DNA from: a virus
Reading direction: 5' to 3' (one strand)
IMG/VR virus record: IMGVR_UViG_3300025000_000291
Coordinates: 1-33,585 of that record
DNA length: 33,585 nucleotides
Shown here: one piece after another, positions 13,009 through 30,386 of the stretch
How positions within the stretch are numbered: the first letter of the stretch is position 1
Layout of the letters: each line of letters opens with the position of its first letter
Notes under the pieces: generated by a model
Database searches by the model: none
What the model was told of the DNA's origin: nothing
The model's input: the letters and a program-made list of their open reading frames with translations, nothing else
Made by a program: the position numbers and the translations under genes

Positions 13009-13025
13009 GTCTAGATCTGCTAGAC
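13009..13025 (-). repeat. Perfect inverted repeat between neck and sheath genes
   Basis: The arms GTCTAG and CTAGAC flank a five-base spacer, starting at the stop codon of the upstream gene. On the minus strand the downstream sequence is TCAAATAATAAAAATTT, so there is no proper U run. It may be a weak terminator, an mRNA end-protecting hairpin or a protein-binding site. Confidence 0.55.
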
Positions 13026-13861
13026 TATTGTTCTTCGTTCTTTTTCTTTTTGAGCGCTCCGACAAGATCTCCTGCCATCCGCGCTTCCCAGCCACCTGGG
13101 ATCATGTTCGTTGCTCCGTCTTTAGCAGATTCCTGAATGGAGTCTTTATTTACACCACCAAATACAAATGGCATTGCCATCATTGGGAGAGTTGCAACTG
13201 ATAGGGCTAGTGCACGAGAACCTAATCGTTTGTGTGCAATAGCTTTGTTTCCCGCATTAAACCATTCTCGCGTTCCTGCTTCTCCTGTATTTACAGGTGC
13301 ATTCTTAATTAAGCGATCTCTCATAATACCTTGTCCTTTTAAATATGCCTTGTCATTTTTCCAAACAAGCTCTGGCTTTGGACCTTTTCCAAACCATGTT
13401 TTAACGGTAGGATCTACTGTTTTATACTGAGTGTTTCGCATCTCTTGCATTAACACTTTGCCTGTAGATTTGAAACCTTTTTTCATTTCGCCGATCATAT
13501 GAACTTTTTCGCCCATTTGACTTTGTAACCATCCGTTGTTATTTTTAACAAACTTGCCTCGATTTGCTAAAAACGTAGAGTCGTTCTTTAAAAAGTCTTT
13601 TCCACCTTTTAAGTATTCTGGATGTTTAAAAGCTTTCGTAAAGTCTCGCAAAGCATTTAAACCTGCTTCACCGCCTTTACCATACTCAGCTAAACCAGTC
13701 TCAGCGTATCTAAGAAGTTTGCCACTAGAACCAAAGTGTTTAGCAGCAAATCCGCCAACAGCTTTCATTGCTTTAAAGATAGTAGGAAGCATCTGTGCAT
13801 TCTTTTCCAACTCGTCGTAAAACCCATTCATTATTATTACATTCTTTTCTTGTTCAGTCAT
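13025..13861 (-). CDS. Unknown head/neck-region protein with GFYDELEKNA motif, 278 aa
   Basis: No family recognised. Rich in Lys and Gly with many short helices. Near the N-terminus it carries GFYDELEKNAQ (residues 12-22), one of the F-x-D-E-L-x-K-x-A motifs repeated in head proteins here. A hydrophobic stretch ALALSVATLPMMAMPFVFGG near residues 225-244 could be a membrane or buried helix. The C-terminus is KKKKNEEQ, highly charged. ATG 13861 overlaps the previous stop; a start at 13831 (MNGFYDEL) is possible and would put the motif at the very N-terminus. Position between neck and sheath genes suggests a virion protein, perhaps internal or ejected, but that is inference. Confidence 0.7.
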   Translation of the reverse strand: MTEQEKNVIIMNGFYDELEKNAQMLPTIFKAMKAVGGFAAKHFGSSGKLLRYAETGLAEYGKGGEAGLNALRDFTKAFKHPEYLKGGKDFLKNDSTFLANRGKFVKNNNGWLQSQMGEKVHMIGEMKKGFKSTGKVLMQEMRNTQYKTVDPTVKTWFGKGPKPELVWKNDKAYLKGQGIMRDRLIKNAPVNTGEAGTREWFNAGNKAIAHKRLGSRALALSVATLPMMAMPFVFGGVNKDSIQESAKDGATNMIPGGWEARMAGDLVGALKKKKNEEQ

Positions 13862-14727
13862 TATTCAATCTCTGTATAAAGTTCATCATCGTTGTTGATA
13901 ATCATCTTTGCGCTAAGAACGTAATAGCCCGAAATAGCAGCACCATTTGGAAGCTCGTATATCAAAGGATCTGCCGTTGTATTTAAAGCCACCCCTGTAT
14001 GAGATTCTAAAGTTATTGCGTCAGTATAGTCCAGTATAACTGTATCAGTAGGGGCAACTCTAAATTTAATAGCAGTCCCGTTGTTAACAACAGTGTAATC
14101 ATGATTTTCAAAAATTTCTGTCTCTCCGACATATGCATAGGAGTTATAATTCTTTTCATCCCGTATAATATGTATCTGTTGAAGAAACCCTAGGGATACT
14201 TGAACGCCTGACAATTCAATGTCGGAATTAGCACGAACAATCTGTTCTTGTGAAATAGATAAATTATTAATTTGTCTAATACCAGCACTTCTTAGTTCGT
14301 TTTTAAATCCTGTTAAGTTCTTAAAAAGTTTGTCTGCAAGTATTTCTGCTTGTACTCCACTTTTGCTAATAGCATTAAAGACTACATATCCTCTTAAAAG
14401 GTCTGTGTACGCTTTCACATTTGAAGGGTCACTAATAGTAGAATCATACGCAGCCAGATTACTAAATCCCTTACCATTGTAATTTACAATAGCATTGGTA
14501 GCATCTTGTCCTTTTACCAAGTATGTCCAGCTAAGATCGCCGCGTTGTAATACTATACTTGGTCTTAAAACAGCTACTCCTAAATCTATAGCGTGTCTAT
14601 CAGCAATAATTATTTTTGTTTTTTGTACATCGGCATCCCATGTAAATACAGGATCTATAGAAAATAAAGCCTGTACAAAATTCAAAAAAATATATTTTAC
14701 GTTTAAAATAACATTGTTGTTTATCAT
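13861..14727 (-). CDS. Probable neck or tail-completion protein
   Basis: 288 aa, beta-rich. The N-terminal segment (FVQALFSIDPVFTWDADVQ, then KTKIIIADRHAIDLGVAVLRPSIVLQRG) resembles proteins at the head-tail joint of myoviruses whose first domain handles the tail end and whose second domain is a beta-sandwich. I recognise the pattern but not a specific family. It sits between the capsid and sheath genes, as neck genes do. The start overlaps the previous gene's end by four bases, with a weak AGAGA site upstream. No membrane segment or K-x-A motif is evident, in contrast with its downstream neighbour. Confidence 0.6.
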   Translation of the reverse strand: MINNNVILNVKYIFLNFVQALFSIDPVFTWDADVQKTKIIIADRHAIDLGVAVLRPSIVLQRGDLSWTYLVKGQDATNAIVNYNGKGFSNLAAYDSTISDPSNVKAYTDLLRGYVVFNAISKSGVQAEILADKLFKNLTGFKNELRSAGIRQINNLSISQEQIVRANSDIELSGVQVSLGFLQQIHIIRDEKNYNSYAYVGETEIFENHDYTVVNNGTAIKFRVAPTDTVILDYTDAITLESHTGVALNTTADPLIYELPNGAAISGYYVLSAKMIINNDDELYTEIE

Positions 14728-14930
14728 AAATCGATCTCTCTATCTTGGAAAAAATCAGACACGTCTACACGTTCTTGTAGATCATTAGCACTGTCATTCT
14801 CCAAAGCAGAGTAATCCACCAGGACACCTCTGTCTGCAGCGTCGCTCAAAATAGTAGCCTTGGCGTCTTGTTTTAGGGACAAGCTGGTCTGATAGTCAAT
14901 CGTTAAATTATCAATTTGTGATAGTTTCAT
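14724..14930 (-). CDS. Small hypothetical protein with promoter at its start codon, 68 aa
   Basis: Acidic, helical protein (SLSLKQDAKATILSDAADRG, ending in VSDFFQDREIDL). No family recognised. The single Met at 14930 is the only sensible start. It has no Shine-Dalgarno sequence: the -10 element TATATT of a strong promoter ends five bases before the ATG, so the transcript would begin at or next to the start codon (leaderless). It is first in a transcription unit with neck, sheath and tube genes. It overlaps the next gene by four bases, so its translation may be coupled to the neck protein. Confidence 0.65.
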   Translation of the reverse strand: MKLSQIDNLTIDYQTSLSLKQDAKATILSDAADRGVLVDYSALENDSANDLQERVDVSDFFQDREIDL

Positions 14931-14935
14931 AGTTT

Positions 14936-14964
14936 AATATATGTATTTTCAATGGATTAGTCAA
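14936..14964 (-). promoter_or_regulatory. Sigma-70-type promoter, neck/sheath/tube unit
   Basis: TTGACT (14964-14959), 17-base spacer, TATATT (14941-14936), followed by AAACT and the ATG. It lies in the 62-base gap between two genes. It also fits the Bacteroidota frame TTG-N20-TAnnTT. The predicted start site falls on or beside the ATG. Confidence 0.8.
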
Positions 14965-14992
14965 ATTTTTCGTATGAAAATGCTGCTCTATT

Positions 14993-15793
14993 TTATAGAG
15001 GTTGCCCCTTGTATACAACAGTCTGTAGAGTTCCGTTTAGATCTCGAAGAGTTTGTAGGGTATCGCCCGCTAGAGATAAACGGAGAATTATGGACGTATA
15101 CGTTAACAAATAAAAAATAACCTCATTAAAATTCTTAGTATCCTCTGACAATCGGTAAAATGCCAGAGTATCTATATCATTTAACAAGAAGTGGATCCTA
15201 TCTTGTTGTAAAAGTTTATAGCGTGTTATAACAATCTCTGGAATTCCGATCTCTCTCCAAGTGGTTTCGTAATCCTCTATAATTTTAAGTATTAGCAATC
15301 TGGCTTTGGTTCTAAAATCAGCGCTATCTAAAAAATCTACATTTATGAAACTTCTTAATGCAGTTTCGTACGCAAATATCTGAACCTGTATCATATCTTT
15401 AAATAACTGCGTACGCCCTGAAGTTCCTAAATTAAAGTTTTTTAGGTCTGCCAGCTGAAGTTCCTTAATAATACCAAATATAGGGTGAGTGGTGTTATCA
15501 TATGCAATGTCATTATTAAGCTTACTTTTTCCCTTTTGATCATAATATGTTTTTACTACAAACGAAACTATACCCCCGAGTGCTGTTAAAATGCCCTCCC
15601 AGTTAACTGGACTTTGTTCCTTACTAGATTGTCTAGTCGTAGTCAAAGTGTCAGACACATAAGTGGTGAGGGGTAAGTTTTTTATTTGACGCTCAGAAGA
15701 ATTACGCACATAGCTAGATGTGGCCAATGTAGCTCCTATAACGAACATTATTCCAAAAATTATGTTTAAAACTATTGATGTCTTCTTTTCCAT
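14993..15793 (-). CDS. Membrane-associated hypothetical protein, 266 aa
   Basis: Two hydrophobic segments are visible near the N-terminus: IVLNIIFGIMFVIGATLAT (about 7-25) and ILTALGGIVSFVVKTYY. The rest is soluble and helical, with several aromatic and Leu-rich stretches (IEDYETTWREIGIPEIVI, then FYLLTYTSIILRLSLAGDTL). I recognise no family. It sits among neck genes of the late operon, so a membrane or inner-membrane-contact role during infection is conceivable. It starts 14 bases after the preceding gene with a weak GGTAGAT leader. A promoter follows its stop codon. Confidence 0.65.
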   Translation of the reverse strand: MEKKTSIVLNIIFGIMFVIGATLATSSYVRNSSERQIKNLPLTTYVSDTLTTTRQSSKEQSPVNWEGILTALGGIVSFVVKTYYDQKGKSKLNNDIAYDNTTHPIFGIIKELQLADLKNFNLGTSGRTQLFKDMIQVQIFAYETALRSFINVDFLDSADFRTKARLLILKIIEDYETTWREIGIPEIVITRYKLLQQDRIHFLLNDIDTLAFYRLSEDTKNFNEVIFYLLTYTSIILRLSLAGDTLQTLRDLNGTLQTVVYKGQPL

Positions 15794-15806
15794 TATCTAC
15801 CGTAGG

Positions 15807-16580
15807 TTAATCATTAATAGGAATAGAGTACACTTTGTCCTCATTGGCTACTTGAGCTAGTTGCACCTGCTGCTCAATGATATAACCAAGTTTTTTTAGG
15901 TACCTAATCTGTATAACTACCCAACGTTTTCCTTCATCATCCACTACAACATCTCTTGGGGAAAGTAGAGGATAGTTTAAAGTAAACAACATTGAGTCAC
16001 TTGGTTTCCACTCTCCAAACATTAGAATTTGATTATATTTTGGAGAAGCGTTAACCATGCCTTTGAAAACGATTGGAGTAAAATAACCATCTACCCAACC
16101 TGTACCGTAACAAACACTGCAGTTTGGATCAGTACATCTAAACAATGTAGCATCCCAACAACGTGTACAATGAGTGCCCCAAGTTCGTTTCTTTAATAGT
16201 ACAAAAGGTCTTGCAGTAAATCTAGTTAAAGCCAGAGTTTTTCTGCGTAGCACCTCTTTAATCACATAGTCTGATGGAGCACTTTTAACGTATGCAGGGT
16301 CTGCAGTTAATAGTGCGCCGCTTTGTATCTTTAATTTGTAGTACCACACACGATCATTAATGCGAGTAATTGTAGAATCCTGAAAATCTACGTCTGCAGA
16401 TTGTCCAGAAGCAATACAAACATAATCCTGTAAACTGTCGCTAATACCAGAACTTTCCGAACGATATACATCTATCATAGTACCATTGGGTACTTCTGAC
16501 TCCGCTGTAAACGTCCACTGTAGCAAGTTGTGAAAATAATTATTAACTATACTAAAGGTAGCTAACTCGATCATTACCAT
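15807..16580 (-). CDS. Structural protein with FN3-like domain and zinc-ribbon motif
   Basis: 257 aa. The N-terminal 100 residues look like a fibronectin type III-like beta domain (LLQWTFTAESEVPNGTMIDV, ending in WYYKLKI). The middle has a cysteine cluster: CTRCWD, then CTDPNCSVCYGTGW, a four- or five-Cys knuckle that likely binds zinc. The final part is beta-rich (SDSMLFTLNYPLLSPRDVVV). This C-x2-C plus C-x-GTG arrangement is known from head-tail connector proteins of large phages, which fits the position after the capsid gene. Overlaps the previous gene by seven bases; a weak TAGGT lies before the ATG. Exact role is uncertain. Confidence 0.68.
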   Translation of the reverse strand: MVMIELATFSIVNNYFHNLLQWTFTAESEVPNGTMIDVYRSESSGISDSLQDYVCIASGQSADVDFQDSTITRINDRVWYYKLKIQSGALLTADPAYVKSAPSDYVIKEVLRRKTLALTRFTARPFVLLKKRTWGTHCTRCWDATLFRCTDPNCSVCYGTGWVDGYFTPIVFKGMVNASPKYNQILMFGEWKPSDSMLFTLNYPLLSPRDVVVDDEGKRWVVIQIRYLKKLGYIIEQQVQLAQVANEDKVYSIPIND

Positions 16581-17065
16581 TTATACCTACTTGCTTGTGA
16601 ATACTCAGATGGGGCCTCTCCGTATGCTGCATCAGTGTTTCCTTTAGTATTCCAATTTCTAACTGAATTAAAATAGGAGGAAACTAGCACATTAAAGTAA
16701 TTAACATAACGTCCGTATTTATCGTGGTCTTGAACAGTGATTCCGCCTGAGTCTTGGTAGGTCAAAGTATTACGTGCAGAGATGATTCCTTTCTTAGTTA
16801 GGATTCGTAAAGTAGTTCCTAGAAAAAAAGTAGATAGGTCTGGAATGTCTGTGAATTCTACAAAATTTGGATCGAATACCAGCATGTTATTAAGTTCGTT
16901 CATAGTCATCAATAATGCTCTGTATAATTCTAAATCTGTACTTTCTTGCACTTCCTCCAATGTATTCAGTTCTACATTATCGCCAAGTTCCCCACGAAAT
17001 AGATCAACAACAGGCTGATCGCCTGCGGGGACTGCGGTCTGTAATAGTTTTTCTAGTATCGTCAT
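16574..17065 (-). CDS. Probable head-completion/neck protein, 163 aa
   Basis: Helical N-terminus (MTILEKLLQTAVP, then LEEVQESTDLELYRALLMTMNEL), beta-like middle, Tyr/Ser-rich tail. I recognise no family. It is the first gene after a terminator and promoter pair behind the capsid gene, so expression is set independently of the capsid. A good AAAGGAG site lies before the ATG. Position suggests a connector or completion protein, a role usually held by small helical proteins next to the capsid gene, but the sequence itself does not prove it. Confidence 0.65.
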   Translation of the reverse strand: MTILEKLLQTAVPAGDQPVVDLFRGELGDNVELNTLEEVQESTDLELYRALLMTMNELNNMLVFDPNFVEFTDIPDLSTFFLGTTLRILTKKGIISARNTLTYQDSGGITVQDHDKYGRYVNYFNVLVSSYFNSVRNWNTKGNTDAAYGEAPSEYSQASRYKW

Positions 17066-17097
17066 TTGGGTAACTCCTTTGCATAAAATATCATCTT

Positions 17098-17126
17098 AAT
17101 ATAAGGATTAGTTGAATAATAGTCAA
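17098..17126 (-). promoter_or_regulatory. Sigma-70-type promoter, neck gene unit
   Basis: TTGACT (17126-17121), 17-base spacer, TATATT (17103-17098), followed by AAG. It lies between the capsid terminator and the 163-aa gene. Here a leader with an AAAGGAG site follows, unlike the two ATG-adjacent promoters. Confidence 0.85.
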
Positions 17127-17131
17127 GAAAC

Positions 17132-17163
17132 AAAAAAGGCCAAGCGTGTGCCTGGCCTTTAAA
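17132..17163 (-). terminator. Rho-independent terminator after capsid gene
   Basis: On the minus strand, AAAGGCCA and TGGCCTTT (17135-17142 and 17153-17160 on the plus strand) pair around a ten-base loop, followed by a run of six Ts. It starts 20 bases after the capsid stop and would limit read-through into neck genes. Confidence 0.88.
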
Positions 17164-17182
17164 GTACTGTTAAGTATGTACC

Positions 17183-18097
17183 TTACGAAAGTGCTAATTT
17201 AGCAACGGATCTTGTGTTACCAATACCCATACCAATTGACTCGTAAGCTGCCCAAGTGATAATATTCTTTTTCTTGTCGATCCAGAATTTAGTATCATTG
17301 AGAATTAGGAACTGGCCGAAGAAATCTTGGCTTGTGAAAGCATAGATGTTATTGCCAAGTAAACTAACTTTGTTAGAAACAACTAACTTACGACCAAAGA
17401 GAGTCGAGTACGTGTAACCATTAATATGTTGTTCAGATCCAATAGCATCGCCTACTGTTGTAGCAGGATAAAGCATTAATCTGTTAAACATTGTACTGTT
17501 CATAAGGATAAGTTCACTACGTAACTCATCGCCGTCAAGAAGATCAAAAAGGTTTTTGAAATCTTTTCTTGCAACAGTTTCGTCGCTCTCGAATGATCCT
17601 GTGATAGATTTACTGTTAGGAGTAACAGCTTCCTCTAGTGCGATAGCTGCTTCTACTTGTCCTAGAAATGCAGTATCTTCAATTTTTTGGATATCTAATA
17701 CAGAGTTTCTTTCGATAACTTCTGTAAGAGGCATTTCATACGCTAAGAGCTCTTCTTCAGTTTTTTGGAATTCTTCTGAGGAAACCATAAAGAATGGAAT
17801 CTCGAATCTTTCACCCATTACGTAGTTCGTAGTTGGGTTACCACGGAAGTTTACTGTCATAGCCTTTGAATCTGGCTCGATATCTACGATTTTTACCAAA
17901 CCGTCATGATTTACTGAACGTTGTAGCTCAGGTCTAGTTACGTATTGAGGTTGAATGATCTTACGAGCAAACGAAACCTCACGCAATTTTTGGCGTACAA
18001 ATGCACTACCTTCTTGCGCAACTTTTTCCATACCTTCTGGAGAGCTAAGTTTTTGAACGAAAAGTTCGTTGATTGTTCTTACACTAACATTTTCCAT
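17183..18097 (-). CDS. Major capsid protein (HK97-like fold)
   Basis: 304 aa. The N-terminal region is a helical arm ending near residue 40 (VQKLSSPEGMEKVAQEGSAF), followed by beta-strands (EPDSKAMTVNFRGNP, then RFEIPFFMVSSEEF), a spine-helix region (LAYEMPLTEVIERNSVLDIQ) and a final A-domain stretch (NDTKFWIDKKKNIITWAAYE). This matches compact HK97-fold capsid proteins of large marine and lake myoviruses. It carries an MEKVAQ motif at 23-28, perhaps a maturation or targeting signal. The gene has the most perfect Shine-Dalgarno in the window (AAGGAGGT, nine bases before the ATG), and a terminator follows. Position after protease and decoration-like genes supports the call. Confidence 0.88.
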   Translation of the reverse strand: MENVSVRTINELFVQKLSSPEGMEKVAQEGSAFVRQKLREVSFARKIIQPQYVTRPELQRSVNHDGLVKIVDIEPDSKAMTVNFRGNPTTNYVMGERFEIPFFMVSSEEFQKTEEELLAYEMPLTEVIERNSVLDIQKIEDTAFLGQVEAAIALEEAVTPNSKSITGSFESDETVARKDFKNLFDLLDGDELRSELILMNSTMFNRLMLYPATTVGDAIGSEQHINGYTYSTLFGRKLVVSNKVSLLGNNIYAFTSQDFFGQFLILNDTKFWIDKKKNIITWAAYESIGMGIGNTRSVAKLALS

Positions 18098-18106
18098 TAT
18101 TTCTTA

Positions 18107-18114
18107 ACCTCCTT
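18107..18114 (-). promoter_or_regulatory. Perfect Shine-Dalgarno site of capsid gene
   Basis: AAGGAGGT, nine bases before the capsid ATG and overlapping the end of the preceding gene. Strongest site found here. Confidence 0.9.
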
Positions 18115-18538
18115 ATGCTAATACGAATTCAATCGCGTTAAATGATTTGCTTAAGTACTTCTCAGTATACTGAGCTTTTGTACAATAAGCTACAACTACG
18201 CCAGCACCAGCTGTCGAAGCGGATAATTTACCAGTAGCATCTACATAGAGCGGAGCTCCAACTGCAGGGGTACCAACGTATTGATCTGTTACGCCTTTTA
18301 ATTTTCCGTATATAACAGTAACCTTTCCAGTTGCTGCGATATCAGGAGAAAATCCAGCGGTTAGATCTCTGTTTGACTCTGACCAGATTGGGAATGCCAT
18401 GTTGCCAGCTGTAGGTTTTTTAACGCCTGCGCCGTCCATTTCAACAAAGGTTCCTGTTTGACCAGAGAGTAAGATCCAAGCACTAGCGTCTAGATCGAAT
18501 CTAGAGACTAGATTAAGTGAACTAAGAATTTGAAGCAT
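18113..18538 (-). CDS. Probable head decoration or stabilisation protein
   Basis: 141 aa, Gly/Ala/Thr-rich and beta-like, with the run VGTPAVGAPLYVDATGKLSA and a C-terminal YLSKSFNAIEFVLA. Such sequences are typical of small trimeric proteins that cap or cement the capsid lattice. It sits immediately before the capsid gene (15-base gap), the usual place. GGAGGA lies nine or so bases before the ATG, predicting high expression. No K-x-A motif of the head series is obvious. The decoration call is by resemblance and position, not a definite family match. Confidence 0.65.
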   Translation of the reverse strand: MLQILSSLNLVSRFDLDASAWILLSGQTGTFVEMDGAGVKKPTAGNMAFPIWSESNRDLTAGFSPDIAATGKVTVIYGKLKGVTDQYVGTPAVGAPLYVDATGKLSASTAGAGVVVAYCTKAQYTEKYLSKSFNAIEFVLA

Positions 18539-18560
18539 TTTGCTTATCCTCCGTTATTTT

Positions 18561-18893
18561 TTATAAATCTCCAAGAAGAAAAGATTTAAATCTATCTTCT
18601 GGAGTTAGTCTTTCAAAACTAGCCTGATTGCTCAATTTAAAAGAGCTTATGCTACTTGCTACTTTAGTAAGTTCCGAAGCCTTTTTAATTACTTCTAACT
18701 CATTTGTAGGTTTTACAGAATACTCTTCTATTTTTTCTTCTAACTGTTCTGCCGCCAACTGCCCATTATGGTACAGGTCAAACGCTAGCTTAACAGCTTC
18801 ACTTTTATGTGTCAACTGTTCTGATAGTTCTTGATTTTCTTGCTTTAACTGTAGAATAGCCGCATGTGCTAACTTTGTAAGTTCGTTATTCAT
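18561..18893 (-). CDS. Helical head-region protein, 110 aa
   Basis: Starts MNNELTKLAHAA, an N-terminal version of the shared E-L-x-K-x-A motif; three more K-x-A sites follow (AVKLAFD, IKKASEL, LTKVASS). A predicted coiled coil covers roughly residues 10-60 (heptads in LQLKQENQELSEQLTHKSEA). Its lysine/glutamate balance and coiled coil suggest a scaffold or capsid core protein, common next to the capsid gene. No Shine-Dalgarno sequence precedes the ATG, unlike its abundant neighbours; translation may depend on coupling. Confidence 0.62.
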   Translation of the reverse strand: MNNELTKLAHAAILQLKQENQELSEQLTHKSEAVKLAFDLYHNGQLAAEQLEEKIEEYSVKPTNELEVIKKASELTKVASSISSFKLSNQASFERLTPEDRFKSFLLGDL

Positions 18894-18906
18894 TGTTTGT
18901 TTAAAT

Positions 18907-19218
18907 TTATACTGCTAATTCTGCTTTGAAAGCTCTTGCCATTATAATACCAGCTTCGTGCAATTCAGCAACTTTTTCCATTTGTTCTTGTACGTTAATG
19001 TCATGATCAATTAAAAGACTTGCTAATTTAGTAACATCTTCTTTTTCATAATCAGTACCGTAAGTGTCTGCTAAAAGATCATCTGCTAAAGCAGCGTATT
19101 TTTCAAGAACTTCCATTCTTTCATCGACAGCTTCCGCAACTTGTACTTGTTCTTCTGCAACTTTTTCGGTTCCTGCTTGCGCATTGACCATATTTTCATA
19201 TACATCTAATAGACCCAT
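18907..19218 (-). CDS. Head-region protein with IMARAF motif, 103 aa
   Basis: Start chosen at 19218 because GGAGG lies 11 bases upstream; a TTG at 19236 would overlap that site. Acidic and helical (many E, A, K), with four K-x-A sites (TEKVAEE, LEKYAAL, VTKLASL, MEKVAEL). The C-terminus, HEAGIIMARAFKAELAV, matches the sequence AKGRIMARGFMSEL in the next upstream gene's product, so the two proteins share a module. Probably scaffold or capsid-internal, inferred from composition and position. No known family. Confidence 0.66.
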   Translation of the reverse strand: MGLLDVYENMVNAQAGTEKVAEEQVQVAEAVDERMEVLEKYAALADDLLADTYGTDYEKEDVTKLASLLIDHDINVQEQMEKVAELHEAGIIMARAFKAELAV

Positions 19219-19236
19219 TGTGATACTTACCTCCAA

Positions 19237-19755
19237 TTATTGATTGTATACTGTTTTATACAATTCTGTTAATATCCATACTCTTGAATCTTCTGCAACT
19301 TTTTCAGTTTCGTCTATCTGAGCAGTTTCAGGAATTACTTCTTCTCCAGAGAGTTCTACTGCGCTAGCTAATTTTTGCAATTCGCTCATAAAGCCTCTTG
19401 CCATAATTCTACCTTTTGCGTCCAGTTCTGCAGCTTCTTTTTCCATTTCCGCAAGTTTTTCTAGTTCAATCGCTTCAGCAGTTTTTTCAACTACTTCTTC
19501 AGCAACTACTTCAGCAACAGGTTCTGCAACTACTTCAGGAACTACTTCAGCAACAGGTTCTGCAACTACTTCAGGAACTACTTCAGGAACTACTTCAGCA
19601 ACAGGTTCTGCAACTACTTCAGGAACAGGTTCAGGAACTACTTCAGGAACTACTTCCACTGCTTTAGGTTCTTGTAAACCATCTGCAAAAATTTCTTCAG
19701 CTGTTTTTTGTCTTTCAAGATCTCTTAAGATCTGATCTATATTTAGTCCAGCCAT
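19237..19755 (-). CDS. Scaffold-like protein with Val/Pro/Glu/Ala repeats, 172 aa
   Basis: Residues about 30-90 are tandem repeats of V-V-P/A-E-V/P units (for example EVVPEPVPEVVAEPVAE), predicted to be extended or disordered. After the repeats a helical part has K-x-A sites (VEKTAEA, LEKLAEM, MEKEAAE, LQKLASA, TEKVAED) and a GRIMARGFMSELQKLA segment shared with the 103-aa neighbour. Strongly acidic composition suits a scaffold core. GGAGGA precedes the ATG. It lies between the protease and capsid genes, the classic scaffold position. It could instead be an internal protein packaged with DNA. Confidence 0.65.
   Translation of the reverse strand: MAGLNIDQILRDLERQKTAEEIFADGLQEPKAVEVVPEVVPEPVPEVVAEPVAEVVPEVVPEVVAEPVAEVVPEVVAEPVAEVVAEEVVEKTAEAIELEKLAEMEKEAAELDAKGRIMARGFMSELQKLASAVELSGEEVIPETAQIDETEKVAEDSRVWILTELYKTVYNQ
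19499..19659 (-). repeat. In-frame short tandem repeats (coding)
   Basis: Units of 12-15 bases built on GAAGTAGTT, with GCAGAACCTGTTGCTGAA variants, arranged in longer blocks (starts near 19511, 19548 and 19596 on the plus strand). They encode the V-P-E-A repeats. Such tracts may change length by slippage. Confidence 0.85.
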
Positions 19756-19769
19756 TATTTATCCTCCAA

Positions 19770-21416
19770 TTACGTTAAATTAATTATGTCTATATAAAGT
19801 TCATCTTTTTTACTTTCTGGTAAATTACTTACCAAGTTTGCTACTTTTTGTAACATCTTTTCAGCTTTTGTCGCTACTAATGAGCCAACTAGAGCTGTTA
19901 ATGCTGGATGTTTACGTATCATGTTCTTAGTACCTGTGATAGCTTCACCTCTTTGCGCATCGTTTTCATATTTACCAGACATGTAGTAAGCAATTGGAAA
20001 ACTTATTAAAGAATTTCGCATAAACTTATCCACACTGGCTGCTGTTTTATTGAACTCTTGCTGTTGCGCCCATAGAGAACCAACAGTTGCTCCACCAATT
20101 AATACAGGCAGTAGCCAAGGATTTTGTAACATAAAAGATCTGAAACCAGTATTACTTTTATTATTAAAAACTTTTGCGTACCCGTAGTAGAGAGTTCCTA
20201 AAATTCCCAGTGGAATTATAGGATTTTTTTCAGGACCTATTTTAGGGTCTGGGGTATACCCAAACAAGGCTCTGCTTACCAAACTTCTTTCCGCAGGGGG
20301 TTGTGGTTGTTGCCACTCTTCTGCTTGTTTTACAAGACCTCTAGATATTACTAATTCTTTTGTTAAACTTACATCGGTTAGAATTGGTAGTAAGAGTTCT
20401 GCTATTTTTATGTTAAAGTTTTTTAAATCAAAATCTTCTTTTAATTCAGTTTCATTTTTTGCAAATGAAGCGAGTTTTTGAAAATCTTCCGTAGTAGGAA
20501 AAATCTGCAAAGCCATCATTGTGGACAATGTTTCATTAAAAGGAAATTCAGACAGTTTGTAAAGAACATCATCATCAATCTTATTTTGAGCGTGTCTGAC
20601 CAAGTTTACAAGTTGCTTTGGGTCCTTGCTAAGAGTGACCTCTGATTCAACAGACTCGACTTGTTTTTTAATTTCAGCCACATTATCTAACTCTGCTAAC
20701 TTAATATAAGAGTTAGCATTATAAAAAGCAAGTTTTTCCGCATAATTTGTTTCTGTTCCACCTAGGTTGGAAAAAATCTTTAAAAACCCTGCGGTCTTCT
20801 CTGCAGGGATTAAAACTACACTAATATCAAAAAATTTAGGACTAAGATTCTTTGCATATACTCGTCTACCATCAGGGAGGATTTGGTTCATATGTTTTAG
20901 CAAATCGTCACAATACTCATTACGAGTTTTGGCGCGATTTCCACAAATAGAACATTCATCCCAAGGTACACGACACCCCATGGATACTGCTGGCAATGCG
21001 CCTTCACGAAGTTTTTCCAGAACATCTTTAGCACGAGCATCATCTAATTCAAGAATTAGTTCAACTCTATGCATTGAGTTATTGTAATGAGAAAATAAAA
21101 CCTTCCCCATTGATATGTTAGGATCTTTGTTTACGTGGTGTCTATACACATGACCGAGAGCTTCAAATGTTTTGTGATATTGTTTTAAACTTTCTTCTGG
21201 AAAATAGTCACCGTTGCGGTTAGGCCCAAAAAACTCGCCCGCAGACAATGCATTAACCAATGCATACGTCTTACCTACTGCCGCTTTTAAGGATTCCACA
21301 TATGCCAGTAAGTCCTCAGACATACCTGCACGTTTTTCCAATACCCCAGGATGAATTAGACTAAAGACTTCTGAGTTATTGTCACCGTAAAAAAAGTCTA
21401 TTTGCTTTTCAATCAT
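19770..21416 (-). CDS. Prohead-protease-like protein with C-terminal membrane extension
   Basis: 548 aa. Residues 50-215 match a phage head protein/protease family I know from large phages: FFGPNRNGDYFPEESL, VYRHHVNKDPNISMGKVL, SHYNNSMHRVEL, SMGCRVPWDECSICGNRAKT (with C-x2-C), and SPKFFDISVVLIPAEKTA. His, Ser and Asp in these blocks may form the active site, but I cannot assign them. The C-terminal 250 residues are a separate part with a hydrophobic stretch (WLLPVLIGGATVGSLWA) and many K-x-A sites (nine in the protein). The unusual length implies a fused core protein. No Shine-Dalgarno sequence is seen; coupling to the preceding gene is likely. Confidence 0.7.
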   Translation of the reverse strand: MIEKQIDFFYGDNNSEVFSLIHPGVLEKRAGMSEDLLAYVESLKAAVGKTYALVNALSAGEFFGPNRNGDYFPEESLKQYHKTFEALGHVYRHHVNKDPNISMGKVLFSHYNNSMHRVELILELDDARAKDVLEKLREGALPAVSMGCRVPWDECSICGNRAKTRNEYCDDLLKHMNQILPDGRRVYAKNLSPKFFDISVVLIPAEKTAGFLKIFSNLGGTETNYAEKLAFYNANSYIKLAELDNVAEIKKQVESVESEVTLSKDPKQLVNLVRHAQNKIDDDVLYKLSEFPFNETLSTMMALQIFPTTEDFQKLASFAKNETELKEDFDLKNFNIKIAELLLPILTDVSLTKELVISRGLVKQAEEWQQPQPPAERSLVSRALFGYTPDPKIGPEKNPIIPLGILGTLYYGYAKVFNNKSNTGFRSFMLQNPWLLPVLIGGATVGSLWAQQQEFNKTAASVDKFMRNSLISFPIAYYMSGKYENDAQRGEAITGTKNMIRKHPALTALVGSLVATKAEKMLQKVANLVSNLPESKKDELYIDIINLT

Positions 21417-21417: not shown

Positions 21418-22098
21418 TTATGGGTACATACCTCTAACTATCTGTGATACTGCTTCTTGTCTTGCTTTCAATCCTAAATCGTCTGGAGCGGATTTACCTT
21501 CTTTTCCTTTCTTTTGAATATCTGCTAGTGTAGCAAATGTATCTGGAGGAGGTCCACCAAGTTGTTCACCTGATAAACGTCTTAAAGACTGTGTGATATA
21601 AGCACCAGCCGCAAGTGGATCTTCTGCCATGTGCGGGGCAAAATGATACAGAGACTCCCAATATCTAGCTACTTCTTTTGGATCTTCTTGTAGTAATTGT
21701 GGGTGAGCTTCCAACATTTTTTGATAATAATCTTGACTCTTGTAGTCTTTGTACTGACTTTTAAAAAATTTTATAATTGCATCTGCTGCAATGGAAACAC
21801 CAACAACACCCAGTCCTACCATAAGCGCATTGCGCAGCGCAGGAACTTTTGGCGGAGCTTTAACCTTTGCCAACTCTTTTTCCATTTCTAGCATACCTTT
21901 ATACTTATCAGGATCATTAGCACGCCAGTCAAACAGTTGTTGCTGAAAATCTACTCTAGGAGGAGGTGTAGGTCTTGTTACCCCGCCTAGCTCTTTTTGA
22001 ACATTTAAGTAATCTTGGAATTGTGGATCTTTGGTCTTAAACCAATCCATCAAAGTTTTCATATCAATAGGTTGTGGACTTTGTGCTTTTTTAATCAT
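21418..22098 (-). CDS. Head-region protein with one membrane-like segment, 226 aa
   Basis: Starts MIKKAQSPQPIDM, a short K-x-A leader. A Pro-rich section (TRPTPPPRVDF, then KVKAPPKVPAL) precedes the hydrophobic stretch NALMVGLGVVGVSIAADAII (about 90-110). A helical domain with YWESLYHFAPHMAEDPLAAGAYI follows; its spacing looks like a repeated helix fold but I know no family. It lies between the 327-aa protein and the protease, so it is presumably a head component. GGAG sits before the ATG. Could be an internal or ejection protein. Confidence 0.62.
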   Translation of the reverse strand: MIKKAQSPQPIDMKTLMDWFKTKDPQFQDYLNVQKELGGVTRPTPPPRVDFQQQLFDWRANDPDKYKGMLEMEKELAKVKAPPKVPALRNALMVGLGVVGVSIAADAIIKFFKSQYKDYKSQDYYQKMLEAHPQLLQEDPKEVARYWESLYHFAPHMAEDPLAAGAYITQSLRRLSGEQLGGPPPDTFATLADIQKKGKEGKSAPDDLGLKARQEAVSQIVRGMYP

Positions 22099-22110: not shown

Positions 22111-23094
22111 TTATCTTAGCATACGAGCATTCATCATTTGTTGCCCTGCTGTAAATTTATTTAAGACCATACCTGCTTCAGTTTGTTTTGCAGCAATTTG
22201 TGCTCCTTTTGCTACCGCTGCTACCCCTAACCCTAAGGCTCCAAGTGCAACACCACCTGCAATTTTAAGGCCTTTGCCCGCTTTTTTGGTGATTCCTAAT
22301 TTATAATTAGTATTGATTGCCTCAAATGCTTTTTCATATTCATCAAAAGCTGCGGCAATTTTAGTAATGTATGCTATCCTAGAATCGTAGTTTAAGACTG
22401 CTTGGTATAACTCTGAATTTTTATTAATTGTGCCTTGTACACTTGCTTCTTTTTCAAAGTCATAAAGAGGCATTATCTTTTTTAAATCTGCTCTTAGGTT
22501 TAGTAGTAAATTGTCACAACAGGCAGGACTTGCCATTTTAGTAGTTTCTTCTACAGCACTAAGTGATGCAATACCACTTAGAATAGTTTGTTTTGTAATA
22601 TCATAAATCTTGTCATAATCAGACGCCAGTTTTACAGTTTCTTCCATAAAAGAATTAGATATAAACTCTAAGGTCCCATTAAGTCTATCAGCCTGTTCGA
22701 ACAATTCAGGAACATTTACTATCTCCTCCGCTACCTTTGTAGTTTCAGTAGGAATCCCTTTGTTGTAAAGACTAAAGGAAAATGAAACTCTTGGTGCTAG
22801 ATCTGCAAACTCGTCCTGTTCTACCACTGTAAGTTCTGCCGTTTTTGCTGTTAAATGCTCGTAAGCCTCTCCAGCATTTGCTAATGGAAAGTCCACATAC
22901 TTGTCCTCAGATTTATTAATAACTTTTAAATATGTTTCAATATTTGCAGTTTCTGCAACTCTACACATTTCCTGTTTATTAAGTCCATGCACTTGTGCAA
23001 TTTTTTCTAAAGAGTCTGTCAGCGAATGATTGCCTCTAATATACTCATCAGAGATTTCTTTACCAAATTGTATTAATTCTAGCGGATTTTTCAT
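22111..23094 (-). CDS. Head-region protein rich in K-x-A motifs, 327 aa
   Basis: Eight K-x-A sites are spread along it (for example SLEKIAQ, TTKVAEE, TVKLASD, TTKMASP, FEKEASV, ITKIAAA). A C-terminal glycine/alanine-rich hydrophobic stretch (GLKIAGGVALGALGLGVAAV) could insert in a membrane or form a helical bundle. The N-terminal NKQEMCRVAETANIETYLK block reminds me of conserved phage virion proteins but I cannot name a family. It follows terminase, where the portal gene is often found, yet it does not look like a portal. It has its own promoter with the -10 element five bases from the ATG. Confidence 0.65.
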   Translation of the reverse strand: MKNPLELIQFGKEISDEYIRGNHSLTDSLEKIAQVHGLNKQEMCRVAETANIETYLKVINKSEDKYVDFPLANAGEAYEHLTAKTAELTVVEQDEFADLAPRVSFSFSLYNKGIPTETTKVAEEIVNVPELFEQADRLNGTLEFISNSFMEETVKLASDYDKIYDITKQTILSGIASLSAVEETTKMASPACCDNLLLNLRADLKKIMPLYDFEKEASVQGTINKNSELYQAVLNYDSRIAYITKIAAAFDEYEKAFEAINTNYKLGITKKAGKGLKIAGGVALGALGLGVAAVAKGAQIAAKQTEAGMVLNKFTAGQQMMNARMLR

Positions 23095-24855: not shown

Positions 24856-24873
24856 TTCATGTTTTGATTTTAT

Positions 24874-25767: not shown

Positions 25768-25770
25768 TGT

Positions 25771-27063
25771 TTAGTTCCTATCTGTTATAAGTTTATGAAG
25801 TCTATTAGTTACTAGCGCGCCAATACCTGCGCCTAACGCAAATTTTCCTGACGTCTTTAGATTCTTTGTAAATACTTTGGCTACCTCTGCATCGGTACGT
25901 ACTGTATTTTTCATTTTAAGGACATCTGATGTCTGCATACGAATGGGTTCAGAATTTACAGTTTGCTTTTCAACAGAGTTTAACCCATCTACTATTTTGT
26001 CGCCCGTAATCTTATGTACATCAATCGACTCAATACCACCAACAGCTTTACGATACCATTTCGGATTACTATCAAACTGACCTTGCGGGCCTAAAATTTC
26101 ATGTTGTTTTTTAAACGCAATAATTCTAGGTTTATACCCTTCGATTGCGGCTAGCTCTGCAACAGTCGATCCAGGAGCCATAAAGACGATATCCTTGCTT
26201 GTAAGAAGTTTTGGCATATCTGCACGCGGCACGCCCATATTAATCTTCATATTTGGATACCGTTTCTTAAAACTCTCTGCTTTATTAGAACCCAATCCTG
26301 CGGCTAATAGTTCTAATTCGTAATTACCTTTTCCATGTTTTTTATCCATACCTTCGACAATTGAATCAAATATAGGTTCTGGATTACTAAACAACCTACC
26401 CCACTGAACTCCTCCGCCTGGGTATATCAAAGCTTTTTTAACAGAGTTGGTAGGGGCTGCCGCCGTGGTATGAAACACTTTATCCGTTGGAATCGTAGTA
26501 ACATTAATGTTTGGGCGTTTTTTAACTACTGGGGCAGCAGCAACAAGGTCTCCACCAGGAACTACATTTCTTGTATACACAGGAACCTTATACGCGCGCA
26601 TGTCTTCAATCGGAAGTTTATTTTGCATATGAGGACCATAACCAAAGTCACTAAATACTCGATAAGATTGTTTACCAGTCAGCAAACGCTTAACTGCCAC
26701 CCCTACTGGACTTTTTGGTTTTGAAACATGAAACTCCGCAATAGGATTTCCAGCACTTGCCATACCGTGAAAGTCTACTTCTTTTTCCGTACCTAGAAAT
26801 CTTTTATGTGTGTACTCAGGAAAATGTGCAAGTTCTTTTACACTACTTCCAGTGTTAGCAAGCTCAGTAGCCCACGCTCTGCGCTGCACTTCTAAGCTTC
26901 CATTATTTTTAGCAGAACCTCCAACTACCTCAAAGTAATCTGGATCTATATTTTTTTGGTAAGTTTCTCTATTTAGTCCGATAGCTAAAGCAGATCCTCC
27001 GAGACCCGCCGCCACTAAACTAGCCTTATCTAACGTATCTAACTTTTTCTTTTTATTACTCAT
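25771..27063 (-). CDS. GT-B glycosyltransferase-like protein with membrane anchors
   Basis: 430 aa. Residues 208-330 match the C-terminal half of GT-B enzymes of the MurG/GT28 type: KKALIYPGGGVQWGR, ELLAAGLGSNKAE, then MPKLLTSKDIVFMAPGSTVAE with the donor-binding GSTVAEL. An N-terminal half including SDFGYGPHMQNKLP could be the acceptor domain. N- and C-terminal hydrophobic segments (ASLVAAGLGGSALAIG; KFALGAGIGALVTN) suggest membrane association. Sugar donor and acceptor are unknown. It overlaps the ATP-grasp gene by eight bases, so the two form a unit. A phage might use it to modify cell-wall material, virion protein or a lipid; none is shown by sequence. Confidence 0.6.
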   Translation of the reverse strand: MSNKKKKLDTLDKASLVAAGLGGSALAIGLNRETYQKNIDPDYFEVVGGSAKNNGSLEVQRRAWATELANTGSSVKELAHFPEYTHKRFLGTEKEVDFHGMASAGNPIAEFHVSKPKSPVGVAVKRLLTGKQSYRVFSDFGYGPHMQNKLPIEDMRAYKVPVYTRNVVPGGDLVAAAPVVKKRPNINVTTIPTDKVFHTTAAAPTNSVKKALIYPGGGVQWGRLFSNPEPIFDSIVEGMDKKHGKGNYELELLAAGLGSNKAESFKKRYPNMKINMGVPRADMPKLLTSKDIVFMAPGSTVAELAAIEGYKPRIIAFKKQHEILGPQGQFDSNPKWYRKAVGGIESIDVHKITGDKIVDGLNSVEKQTVNSEPIRMQTSDVLKMKNTVRTDAEVAKVFTKNLKTSGKFALGAGIGALVTNRLHKLITDRN

Positions 27064-28849
27064 TAGGCAGGTGTGTCCTCAATATTTTATGATAAGAGTC
27101 AACGAACTCTCTTTCCTTGTCTTTGATAAGTCCTAATTCTTTTGAACTAAAACCTTTTAATCTCTTTGTTGCTTTTTCCACGGCAACATGTTCGGGATCA
27201 CGTAAGTCTTTTATAAACATATGAGTTTGTTTTGGATCAGCTGCCAGTATATAAGCATCTGTAGGACCAAAATCCGTCAAGGTTCCTTTACTTAATTTTT
27301 TTAGTAAGCTCTTTTTACTTTTATTATAAAAATGTCCAATAAACGCACGAGACGCTTTAGGAGAAATAGCATCACTAACTGAGTATCCAAATCTTGCTGC
27401 AAACTCAGGACTAAAGTGAGTAACTCCCACGACGTGTGTTTTGCCTGCACTTCTTGCAGCACTCTCTTGTTCTTTCAGCTCTGCGATGGTACTAAGTCCA
27501 TCCATTCTTTTAGTTTTCTCGAAAGCTTCTACGGTGTGCTTATCAAATCCTTTTATTGCATTACTTCTCTCACGAATTTTAGTAGGGCTAAGTTTTAAGT
27601 AATAGTTCTTATCACCTATACCTAAATGCTTTTCTACTTGTTCACCTTTTACTAGTGCTTTAGGAATATTAACATATAAATTCTTAGCAGACTCCAAATA
27701 TCCTTTAAAAGCTCCTTGGTTTTTTCCAATACCTGGTGCAATTTTATAAGCAGCTAATGGAGCTACCGCAGCTACAGCTCCTACGACTCCTGTACCTATT
27801 AATGCATTTTCCTGTGTATTCGATAACTCTGCCTTTTTATCAAAATGTTTTTTTGTGTAGTACGCGCCAGCTGCGGCGGAAACGGCACCTGCACCCAGTA
27901 CGGCACGGCCTGCAATTATATGTTTCGGCAATTTACCTTTACCTGCAGAAATAAACGCATCCTGTGTTTGAGGAAAATCTAAAAATCCACTTGTACCTGT
28001 GTTACTTTCTAGTATGTTAGACTCAATCATTACGTGTTTATTTGTATCGGCATCAACAGCTATATCGAAACCATGTATTTTATTACTTCTTACATGTTCA
28101 GGTACTGCAGTAATAACTTGTTGTGCATAATTTTCAATACCTCTAAGTTCTTTTGTTTGAAATAATCCTGGAGCTAGTGTACTGAGCTTGCTTCCTTTTT
28201 TAAAAGTAGCAAAGGGAATAACTTTACCATTGTATACATGAACTCGGTATTCTGACTTGGGCTTTAGATTTTTCATCTCCTGTACGAATAGTTCATCAGG
28301 GTGGTATTTAGATACAGCCTCAAGCCTATGATTATGAATAACTGAGTCTTCAAAACGACCGTCAGAGTTTTTACGTTTTACTATCCACTTGTTTTGTCCA
28401 AACTCAGTGTCAAGTCTAGAACGAATTTCTCCTATGTCTGTGCTGCCCTGCGCAACATCTTTATAGTCCTTAGAACGTGGTATAAACCCTTTAAACATTT
28501 CAGTTTCTTTAAACTTATCGAAATTTTCGACAACATCAGGAGTTATAGAATTTTTAACAGCGTTGTGTCCATGATCTAGCTTTCCTGTATTTCGAAGATC
28601 AATAATAGTATGTTTACTGTTTTCAAATTTATGTAAATCCTGTAGATAGCTATTAGTAGGAAGTATTTTAACGCCTAAAAGCTTTTGTATAACCTTAGGA
28701 AAATTTTTTGAAACAGGATTACCGTGTGAATTTCTAGTAACAAGTACAGGTTCTGTTGTTTTTAACATGGTTTCTACGTGTGTACCAAATTGTGGACCTA
28801 CGTTACGTTTAAGCATAGTAGCTGCAACGGTTTTTACAAAATTTTTCAT
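27056..28849 (-). CDS. ATP-grasp domain protein with membrane segments
   Basis: 597 aa. Residues 150-290 have the ATP-grasp order: KWIVKRK (K158), FVQEM (E191), EYRVHVYNGKVI (R202), GFDIAVD (D262) and MIESNILESNTGTSG (E276, N278), the metal-binding end. ATP-grasp enzymes join a carboxylate to an amine or thiol via acyl phosphate. Two hydrophobic stretches (AVLGAGAVSAAAGAYY at 317-331; ALIGTGVVGAVAAVAPLAAY at 349-368) flank FDKKAEL, a K-x-A site. The last 220 residues are unknown. It is in the late operon with a glycosyltransferase-like neighbour, suggesting a modification pathway. Substrate cannot be inferred. Confidence 0.68.
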   Translation of the reverse strand: MKNFVKTVAATMLKRNVGPQFGTHVETMLKTTEPVLVTRNSHGNPVSKNFPKVIQKLLGVKILPTNSYLQDLHKFENSKHTIIDLRNTGKLDHGHNAVKNSITPDVVENFDKFKETEMFKGFIPRSKDYKDVAQGSTDIGEIRSRLDTEFGQNKWIVKRKNSDGRFEDSVIHNHRLEAVSKYHPDELFVQEMKNLKPKSEYRVHVYNGKVIPFATFKKGSKLSTLAPGLFQTKELRGIENYAQQVITAVPEHVRSNKIHGFDIAVDADTNKHVMIESNILESNTGTSGFLDFPQTQDAFISAGKGKLPKHIIAGRAVLGAGAVSAAAGAYYTKKHFDKKAELSNTQENALIGTGVVGAVAAVAPLAAYKIAPGIGKNQGAFKGYLESAKNLYVNIPKALVKGEQVEKHLGIGDKNYYLKLSPTKIRERSNAIKGFDKHTVEAFEKTKRMDGLSTIAELKEQESAARSAGKTHVVGVTHFSPEFAARFGYSVSDAISPKASRAFIGHFYNKSKKSLLKKLSKGTLTDFGPTDAYILAADPKQTHMFIKDLRDPEHVAVEKATKRLKGFSSKELGLIKDKEREFVDSYHKILRTHLPNE

Positions 28850-28850
28850 T

Positions 28851-29735
28851 TTAATTTTCTTCCGTTATTTCTGAGATGTGTCTACGTTTAGATTTTTTAG
28901 ACTTTACTAAAGTTCCTGTGCTGTCTATTACATTTTCTAGAAGGTCTTCTTCTTTTTTACCTGACAAAACAAACGTAATTTGTGAGAATAGGTCTCTCTT
29001 TTCCTCTGTATCTTTTTCAATTCTATCTAGACGATCAGATAACCTAATAACCAACTGCCCCCATTTCTGAGCTTCTTCGGGATGTGCTCTCATTTGCTCT
29101 TTAAAATTATAATAGGCATCTGTTCCCATATCACGGATCATCTGATCAAATGACTTATCAGGAGCAATGCCTAGTTTCCAAATTAAATAATCTTTGTCGC
29201 CGTCAAGAGCTAAATTGTAAAACTTTTTTAATCTAGGTTCTTTAACAACATTAACATATTCTTTTTTCTGAGACAGTGACCAATTTTCTACATTAAAGAA
29301 ATAATGTAAAAAGTCTTTTATATCCTCATGCGAGTAATGAATATTATACTTACCATTTATGATAAGTTCGATGTCTTCGTCATTAACCTTAGCTAAGGCT
29401 AAAGAGGTCATGATTTCGTACATGTTCTGGTCTTTTAATATTTCGAATGCACCCGCCAATCCTACTGTATTTTCAGATACCTGCAGTTTTAATTCTTTAG
29501 CAACAAGGGTTATAATGTTTAATTCTCTTAACCATTCTGGTTCAGGAATCGTGTTAACTCCTTTAAAATATTCAGGGGCCAACGTAGATATTTTAGAATA
29601 TACTTGTGCGACTGCTTCTCGTGGAAACATATCAGCCAGGGTAACACCTAACTGGTTTATTCTATCGTATATAACATCAATTGAGTACTTACAAGCTACT
29701 AGTGCCTCGATGTACTTAATAAAAGGGATTTCCAT
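28851..29735 (-). CDS. Hypothetical protein, 294 aa (possible packaging or late regulator)
   Basis: Helical, charged protein with no recognised family. Features: an acidic/aromatic middle (YYFNVENWSLS-like), a DRLDRIEKDTEEKRDLF coiled stretch, and a basic tail KSKKSKRRHISEITEEN that may bind nucleic acid. A small terminase subunit is one possibility by composition and by its location upstream of terminase in the same operon, but several genes lie between, and no helix-turn-helix is obvious. Adjacent genes overlap or abut, so it is operonic. The leader has only GAG. Confidence 0.55.
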   Translation of the reverse strand: MEIPFIKYIEALVACKYSIDVIYDRINQLGVTLADMFPREAVAQVYSKISTLAPEYFKGVNTIPEPEWLRELNIITLVAKELKLQVSENTVGLAGAFEILKDQNMYEIMTSLALAKVNDEDIELIINGKYNIHYSHEDIKDFLHYFFNVENWSLSQKKEYVNVVKEPRLKKFYNLALDGDKDYLIWKLGIAPDKSFDQMIRDMGTDAYYNFKEQMRAHPEEAQKWGQLVIRLSDRLDRIEKDTEEKRDLFSQITFVLSGKKEEDLLENVIDSTGTLVKSKKSKRRHISEITEEN

Positions 29736-29737
29736 AT

Positions 29738-29971
29738 TTATAGCTCGTCTTCGTAATAAGCGTGAATATAGTAAATAAGCGTAGATAGGTCATCACTCGG
29801 AGAGAGCTCCACAATTTTCTTGAGCTCATCGGAGTATAGTATAATAGTTCTTTCAGAACTGCCAACAACCATTTCAACAGTTGCACCAAATTCTTCTTCT
29901 AAGTAGTCTTGAATTTTATTTGCAAACTGTAAATGATCTGATGTTCCGTTGTGCTCTATTAAGATATACAT
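29738..29971 (-). CDS. Hypothetical protein, 77 aa
   Basis: Begins MYILIEHNGTSDHLQF and has an acidic, mixed alpha/beta profile with VEMVVGSSERTIILYSDELKKI in the middle. I recognise no family. It abuts its neighbours by two to three bases, so it is part of the late operon. A short TGGG leader precedes the start, weaker than for virion genes. A small beta-alpha fold is plausible. No membrane segment. Confidence 0.6.
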   Translation of the reverse strand: MYILIEHNGTSDHLQFANKIQDYLEEEFGATVEMVVGSSERTIILYSDELKKIVELSPSDDLSTLIYYIHAYYEDEL

Positions 29972-29972
29972 C

Positions 29973-30386
29973 TTAACCCACTATCTGTAGTTCACGATCA
30001 GGACGAGCAGGCTCTTTGCTGCCTAAATACATTGCTCCACCAACAACTGCTGCAGCACCTAGCGCCGCCTTTCCTTTGTTCTTTGCTAACCAAGAGTTCT
30101 CGCTCTTATACTTATCGCTTTGTTTACTAAGAAAGTCTGCAACTACTTGATTGTCCGTCTTGTTGCCGTTTGCTAGTGCTCTATGTGTTTCTGCAACCAA
30201 TTCTCTTATCTTAGAGGTTCCTGCCTGGCCTGCAACTATGTTTTTAGAGTAGTGCGCGGTCATTGCCTCGTGAAAAGCATTAGCAGCCTTACGACCTTCG
30301 TTGTATGAGTTAAAGGTAGCTTTCATTACACCAGCAATCTTACCGATTTCATCAAAAAAAGCATCTTCTACTTTAGGTTCAAACAT
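29973..30386 (-). CDS. Head-region protein with AFFDEIGKIA motif and C-terminal hydrophobic tail, 137 aa
   Basis: N-terminal DAFFDEIGKIAGVM (8-21) is the clearest copy of the F-x-D-E-L/I-x-K-x-A motif. A helical body follows (EGRKAANAFHEAMTAHYSKN), then a glycine/alanine-rich stretch KAALGAAAVVGGAMYLG near the C-terminus that could cross or insert in a membrane. GGAG lies 11 bases before the ATG. No known family. It resembles other small late proteins here with a motif near the start and a hydrophobic helix at the end, a design suited to a packaged, ejected protein. Confidence 0.6.
   Translation of the reverse strand: MFEPKVEDAFFDEIGKIAGVMKATFNSYNEGRKAANAFHEAMTAHYSKNIVAGQAGTSKIRELVAETHRALANGNKTDNQVVADFLSKQSDKYKSENSWLAKNKGKAALGAAAVVGGAMYLGSKEPARPDRELQIVG

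Follow-up and report, generated by a model that had tools for sequence, protein, structure and literature searches.

The maturational protease of herpesviruses cleaves an Ala-Ser bond. The in vivo form of the pseudorabies virus (PRV) protease ends in Ala225 (PMC4498786), and the proteases of phages T4, phiKZ, 201phi2-1 and SPN3US cut after Glu (PMC5694885, PMC10052503), the site of T4 gp21 being L/I-X-E (PMC9026906). In T4, a single N-terminal tag, the capsid targeting sequence (CTS) of 10 residues, serves both for targeting and for processing (PMC9026906). A comparable arrangement appears to be encoded in a 33.6-kb virus record (IMG/VR IMGVR_UViG_3300025000_000291, positions 1 to 33,585; the whole stretch analyzed is hereafter called the window), which carries early genes, including those for dUTPase, ribonucleotide reductase, a sigma factor and DNA polymerase, on the plus strand and a head-tail gene block on the minus strand. 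The element in question is a short motif, K-x-A (Lys and Ala separated by one residue, K.A in pair counts), that recurs in the head-region proteins. A preliminary description of the window proposed two roles for it, a cleavage site for a maturation protease or a tag that targets proteins as the T4 CTS does; both proposals are supported, as one system, by sites at protein junctions, crowding of sites in core proteins, a logo spanning P7 to P1' and tags shared by unrelated proteins. We put at about 0.87 the probability of the combined explanation, namely that K-x-A is the recognition site of the 548-amino acid (aa) protease of this block and that tags ending in it guide the loading of cargo. A maturation-protease site is a very probable identity for the motif, which is likely also to terminate targeting tags. 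Gp21-type head maturation with a CTS is a known kind of system; no report of a K-x-A head-protease motif was found in the open-access literature (subscription journals were outside the search), and within that scope the K-x-A, Ala-P1 variant is new.

K-x-A sites in the head-core proteins

The core set comprises five proteins encoded on the minus strand: the 110-aa (18561..18893) and 103-aa (18907..19218) core proteins, a scaffold-like acidic protein of 172 aa rich in E, V and P (19237..19755), the prohead protease (19770..21416) and a 327-aa head protein (22111..23094). Within-protein shuffling that keeps composition yields an expectation of 9.9 K.A pairs for this set, compared with 34 observed; the shuffle maximum is 21, so that 0 of 5000 shuffles reach the observed count. 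Among gapped dipeptides with a mean count above 3, K.A ranks first, and 0 of 2000 shuffles match its z-score for any gapped dipeptide tested. In the same test, no K.A excess is seen in the early genes (24 vs 19.8 expected), the tail and neck genes (2 vs 6.6) or the other late genes (24 vs 31.6) of the window. Thus, the enrichment of head-core over tail and early proteins expected in the preliminary description is borne out by shuffled sequences, and the lack of enrichment that it named as contrary evidence is not observed. The peptides it quoted are all present, namely GFYDELEKNA (residues 13-22 of a 278-aa protein), AFFDEIGKIA (9-18 of a 137-aa protein), NELTKLA (3-9 of the 110-aa protein), DSLEKIAQ (27-34 of the 327-aa protein) and MEKVAQ (23-28 of the capsid protein). 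Its site counts hold for the 172-aa (six), 103-aa and 110-aa (four each) proteins, terminase and tube (one each) and sheath (none) but are too low for the protease and the 327-aa protein, each of which contains 10 sites rather than nine and eight, respectively.

By inspection, the core proteins appear helical and rich in K, A and E, so that K.A might arise by chance from composition or helix periodicity. This explanation has practically no probability left and can be considered already refuted: composition is kept in the shuffles, the spacing is 2 rather than the helical 3 or 4, K.A exceeds all other pairs while A.K stays at expectation in the same proteins, and early, tail and terminase proteins show no excess.

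The enrichment recurs in related phages. A first set of loci was found partly with a motif-containing pattern (EGMEKVAQ); a second set, with near-duplicates removed, was fetched by protease catalytic-domain patterns only, so that the motif had no role in its selection, and it repeats the result. For homologs in the first set (window excluded) and in the second set, the observed and expected K.A counts are 24/5.3 and 61/15.2 for the 110-aa family, 74/25.9 and 208/54.3 for the 103-aa family, 16/8.5 and 74/26.1 for the 172-aa family, and 96/27.3 and 367/105.7 for the 327-aa family, the richest of all; the held-out proteases have 101/42.8. The control pairs A.K, R.A, K.S, K.G and E.A stay close to expectation or under it in these families, except for a weak R.A excess in the 327-aa family (55/38.5). 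Among the homologs, K.A is low in sheath (2/7.1) and terminase (12/21.4). In the scaffold-like proteins of relatives, many K-x-A positions shift while the copy number stays high, as expected of sites that serve destruction.

A blind scan of all pairs in T4 gp67, gp68, gp21 and gp22 serves as a positive control: I.E ranks second and L.E fourth among 1072 pairs, and neither is enriched in T4 shell and tail proteins. The T4 and window motifs do not cross over, with K.A at 12/7.1 in the T4 core and no enrichment of Glu-P1 motifs in the window core (I.E 5/7.2, L.E 12/14.0, A.E 16/15.0), where K.A gives 34/9.8 in the same comparison. Positive on T4, the scan could be applied to any phage whose maturation site is unknown.

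The protease, the capsid protein and the predicted cut

The 548-aa protein matches phrog_18299, head maturation protease, with an E-value of 1.6e-8. The Pfam S78 score, 15.4 bits, is under the gathering cut-off of 21, which is a profile threshold rather than a biochemical definition, and 4 of 38 relatives match S78 at E <=0.01. A full-length model is poor (predicted local distance difference test, pLDDT, 55), and the catalytic domain (approximately residues 33-203) was therefore modelled alone: for residues 24-213 with 38 sequences, mean pLDDT is 92, the stretch with the K-x-A site forming the low-confidence start. The best solved structure is T4 gp21 (5jbl, Z 11.1, 128 residues, root mean square deviation 3.0), followed by the proteases of varicella-zoster virus (Z 10.0), PRV (9.5) and herpes simplex virus 2 (8.0), the herpesvirus range extending down to 7; unrelated barrel (MCE) domains score below 7. 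With Foldseek, gp21 comes first for the whole model, but the isolated domain gives an ambiguous result (E about 0.01, with MCE domains intermixed). Residues H93, H94 and S145 (H70, H71 and S122 of A3) are invariant in the 38 sequences, and the His and Ser motifs of the window protease coincide with those of gp21 in an alignment whose profile score is weak (E 0.027, probability 1.8). The modelled fold, the conserved Ser and His residues and the PHROG match suggest that the protein is a serine prohead protease of the T4 gp21/herpesvirus type, with predicted activity. Its gene adjoins the scaffold and capsid genes as in T4, but the protein is much longer than gp21 (212 aa), with a long C-terminal extension that holds 8 of the 10 sites. 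Large intein-like insertions (CFLSGTTVV...HN/C) lie two residues past the catalytic Ser (SMG/C) in the proteases L114:6468-9401, L115:6453-9344 and L112:6167-8905 of related loci, and at WDE/C in L082:6447-9314.

Two sites flank the catalytic domain: K28-R29-A30 ahead of it (21327..21335) and K207-T208-A209 immediately behind it (20790..20798), both on the minus strand and both predicted to be sites of self-cleavage. K28 and A30 are invariant in 10 close homologs, and all 42 of the diverse proteases whose N-terminus is complete have a K-x-A shortly ahead of the catalytic domain. In the second locus set, the protease flanks contain 367 K.A against 134 expected and the catalytic domain 29 against 44. 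The major capsid protein (304 aa, 17183..18097, minus strand; phrog_2522 major head protein, E 1.5e-10) is 32% identical to that of Salmonella phage Arash and contains the predicted propeptide site K25-V26-A27 / Q28 (18017..18025), 5 residues ahead of FVRQKLRE; in 40 of 40 capsid proteins that carry the anchor [FY][VIT]Rx[KR]LRE, a K-x-A ends 5-7 residues ahead of it. Exact mature N-termini can thus be predicted for named relatives, the capsid protein starting with GAAMSAFVRQKLRE in Arash and with GAAMSTFVRQKLRE in Vibrio phage D69. K.A is scarce in the mature capsid protein (10/53), but so are K.G and R.A, so that this scarcity is not specific to the motif. As in T4 (gp22, gp67, gp68 and gp23), sites are crowded in core proteins and a site lies at the pro-region of the capsid protein.

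The logo of approximately 400 distinct core-protein sites is protease-like and reads [ED][ED][LMFI]-E-K-[VTQLI]-A followed by [SE], roughly D-E-L-E-K-V-A, its seven positions running from P7 to P1 (the Ala, fixed by construction) and [SE] being P1'. Preferences are strong at P5, P4, P2 and P1'. The observed and expected counts are 130/37 for L at P5, 133/37 for E at P4, 95/25 for S and 97/37 for E at P1', where L, K, P, I and R are depleted. Because of this logo, the long F-x-D-E-L-x-K-x-A and the short K-x-A of the preliminary description can be treated as one motif. By analogy, the cut most likely falls after the Ala (A/x), since the junction positions and the P1' preference fit and the herpesvirus relatives of the fold release an enzyme that ends in Ala.

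An alternative is that K-x-A is never cut and instead binds core proteins to each other or to the shell, with the protease recognizing something else. Such multivalent docking would also suit the multiple copies in core proteins and the N-terminal placement in cargo, but it leaves unexplained the invariant site exactly between the pro-region and the catalytic domain, the fixed site ahead of the capsid core, the P1' preference and the parallel to the T4 cleavage motif, and is improbable. Under the preferred reading as a protease site, the window has Ala at P1 and Lys at P3, where T4, one of the closest known systems, has Glu at P1. The gp245-type enzymes of phiKZ, 201phi2-1 and SPN3US likewise process many head substrates with several sites per propeptide, cleave themselves and favor Ser at P1' (PMC10052503), but their cleavage follows a Glu, in SPN3US within A-X-E. 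The window protease has the predicted fold in common with herpesvirus assemblin and, if the cut follows the Ala, would also have Ala at P1 (set by construction in the logo) and Ser at P1'. It differs in its main signature, which is Lys at P3 together with acidic residues at P4, P6 and P7, in a P1' where Glu occurs as often as Ser, and in sequence, with approximately 11% identity. An apparent preference for Ala at P1 in a gp21-fold protease recalls the herpesvirus proteases and sets the window apart from T4, phiKZ and SPN3US, whose characterized enzymes have Glu at that position.

In four near-complete genomes, genome-wide K.A is at chance (Arash 256/265, D69 277/254, G009 299/300, G010 271/256), and the top-ranked open reading frames (ORFs) are mostly head-core genes plus two families found outside the window, neither with a PHROG family: one of approximately 570-660 aa (L128:2579-4294, L140:17353-19347) and one of approximately 280-370 aa (L135:4692-5807, L137:14903-15994, L024:33873-34724). 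With K.A at 15/4.0, 11/3.5, 11/2.7, 13/2.8 and 10/2.3 across the five loci, they are as rich as core proteins and are likely to be further substrates.

N-terminal tags and candidate cargo

Two window proteins open with an aromatic-acidic tag that ends in K-x-A: NGFYDELEKNA/ in the 278-aa protein (13025-13861; FYDELEKNA at 13796..13822) and DAFFDEIGKIA/ in the 137-aa protein (29973-30386; FFDEIGKIA at 30333..30359), both on the minus strand (the slash marks the predicted cut). These are the only FxDE-type tags in the window, and each is a predicted targeting sequence and cleavage site. K.A is not enriched by count in either protein (2 vs 3.2 and 3 vs 2.4, respectively); the motif is a single N-terminal site in each, supported by relatives rather than by number. 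A direct scan of viral contigs identifies no relatives of either; a homolog of the 278-aa protein that surfaced only via the related locus L002 has FFDELEKNA/, and a protein of L014 opens with a similar tag, GFSDSIEKKA/. Minimal forms occur in other minus-strand proteins: MIKKA/ in a 226-aa protein (21418..22098; MIKVA/ and MIKLA/ in relatives, IIKIA/ in L002), a family with no K.A enrichment over the whole protein (75/73), and MFKIA/ (32432..32446) in a 186-aa transglycosylase (31886-32446), a possible targeting sequence by resemblance. The transglycosylase has an SLT domain (E 1e-6) and might be a head-packaged lysozyme.

Outside the core set, a clear K.A excess in the proteins of relatives is confined to the first 25 residues (45/25.6; A.K control 26/25.6). 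An unsupervised all-against-all comparison of N-termini among proteins without other similarity places several tag groups high in its lists: TYWELxxKxA and LKKLGFEKxA in G009, [IL]FEK[LI]A in G012 and [TS]N[VP]YLEK[IL]A (e.g., TNVYLEKIA) in G011, the last located around the capsid gene. In G009, the tagged proteins are encoded by neighboring small genes in a block beside the terminase, and regular expressions for these tags, written post hoc, give 11 N-terminal matches against 0.18 expected from internal windows. As with the T4 CTS (IPI-III, Alt), one short tag that ends at a protease site is thus found on non-homologous proteins in G009, G011 and G012; unlike the CTS, the tag varies among lineages and differs in sequence, and transport into the head is what we infer here.

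The tags could be mere propeptides that contain a protease site and have no targeting role. They are lineage-specific, and the window has just two long FxDE forms, as this view would allow; on the other side, the T4 precedent unites both functions (PMC9026906), and an identical tag on non-homologous proteins of one genome (TYWEL, LKKLGFE, NVYLEKIA) needs a reason beyond cleavage, so that propeptides alone are an unlikely, although not negligible, account.

Several observations weigh against the combined reading of K-x-A as protease site and tag end. Cleavage is predicted from sequence, and the scissile bond is placed by analogy and the logo only. Sites from homologous proteins are not independent of each other. 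The number of pairs with similar N-termini is clearly in excess only in G011 (133 vs 63-92) and slightly in G009 (138 vs 107-130), with no excess in G010, G012, D69 or Arash. In Arash, 10 of 55 proteins annotated as structural have an N-terminal h.K.A compared with 11 of 193 others (p 0.006), but the A.K control also gives p 0.02. The capsid protein of phage G has no K-x-A site; its gp19 fits the motif (K.A 8/2.4, with LEKVA/S and LLKIA/S). In Mycobacterium phage Alice, which has a distantly related protease, gp90 has K.A as its top pair (19/8.8); this case is not claimed, as the flanking residues misfit the logo.

Proposed mechanism and wider occurrence

From the enrichment, positions, logo, conservation, predicted fold and tags common to non-homologous proteins, we infer cleavage, the scissile bond and a targeting role, which would combine as follows. 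The protease would assemble into the prohead core alongside the 327-, 172-, 103- and 110-aa proteins, release itself by cutting at A30, at A209 and inside its tail, and digest the K-x-A-rich core proteins to small peptides. Its removal of the 27-residue capsid propeptide would permit head expansion and DNA filling. The short N-terminal tag of a cargo protein (FYDELEKNA, FFDEIGKIA, MIKKA or MFKIA in the window) would lead it into the core and then be cut off as in the case of the T4 CTS.

For a large group of phages with poor annotation, sequence alone would thus reveal a code for cleavage and loading, with the tags indicating likely injected proteins that are usually invisible to annotation. 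More tentatively, and with somewhat less than an even chance, widespread large (approximately 140-210 kb) contractile-tailed phages might combine a gp21-fold protease of herpesvirus-like Ala-P1/Ser-P1' specificity with an open-ended set of interchangeable N-terminal tags that load many unrelated proteins for injection, the candidates in relatives being an SNF2-type helicase, a possible LigT-like phosphoesterase and possible Gly-zipper membrane proteins. If so, the K-x-A-ended tag alone could suffice to recognize the injected proteins in the genome of each phage.

The helicase (L155:3994-5394), a predicted packaged and injected enzyme, opens with MDKALFIFEKLA/, and the weak LigT-like protein (L129:1622-2158; Pfam E 0.003, below the cut-off), possibly also injected, with MSTRTYWELMTKRA/. 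In the window, positions 25771-28849 encode proteins of 430 aa and 597 aa (the latter ATP-grasp R2K-like, E 0.001) with embedded Gly/Ala-rich hydrophobic segments; in relatives, proteins in a similar neighborhood bear N-terminal K-x-A tags, and two have DUF5662. An early-strand protein (687-1157; also L046:145-474) opens with MSANELEKLA/N, and homologs in G004 and probably G010 retain ...ELEK[KA]A/; this start is either a chance match or marks an early-strand gene with a packaged product. Finally, the DNA polymerase gene of the window (parts 6664-7839 and 8820-9485) is apparently interrupted by an intein- or homing endonuclease-like ORF (7805-8677).

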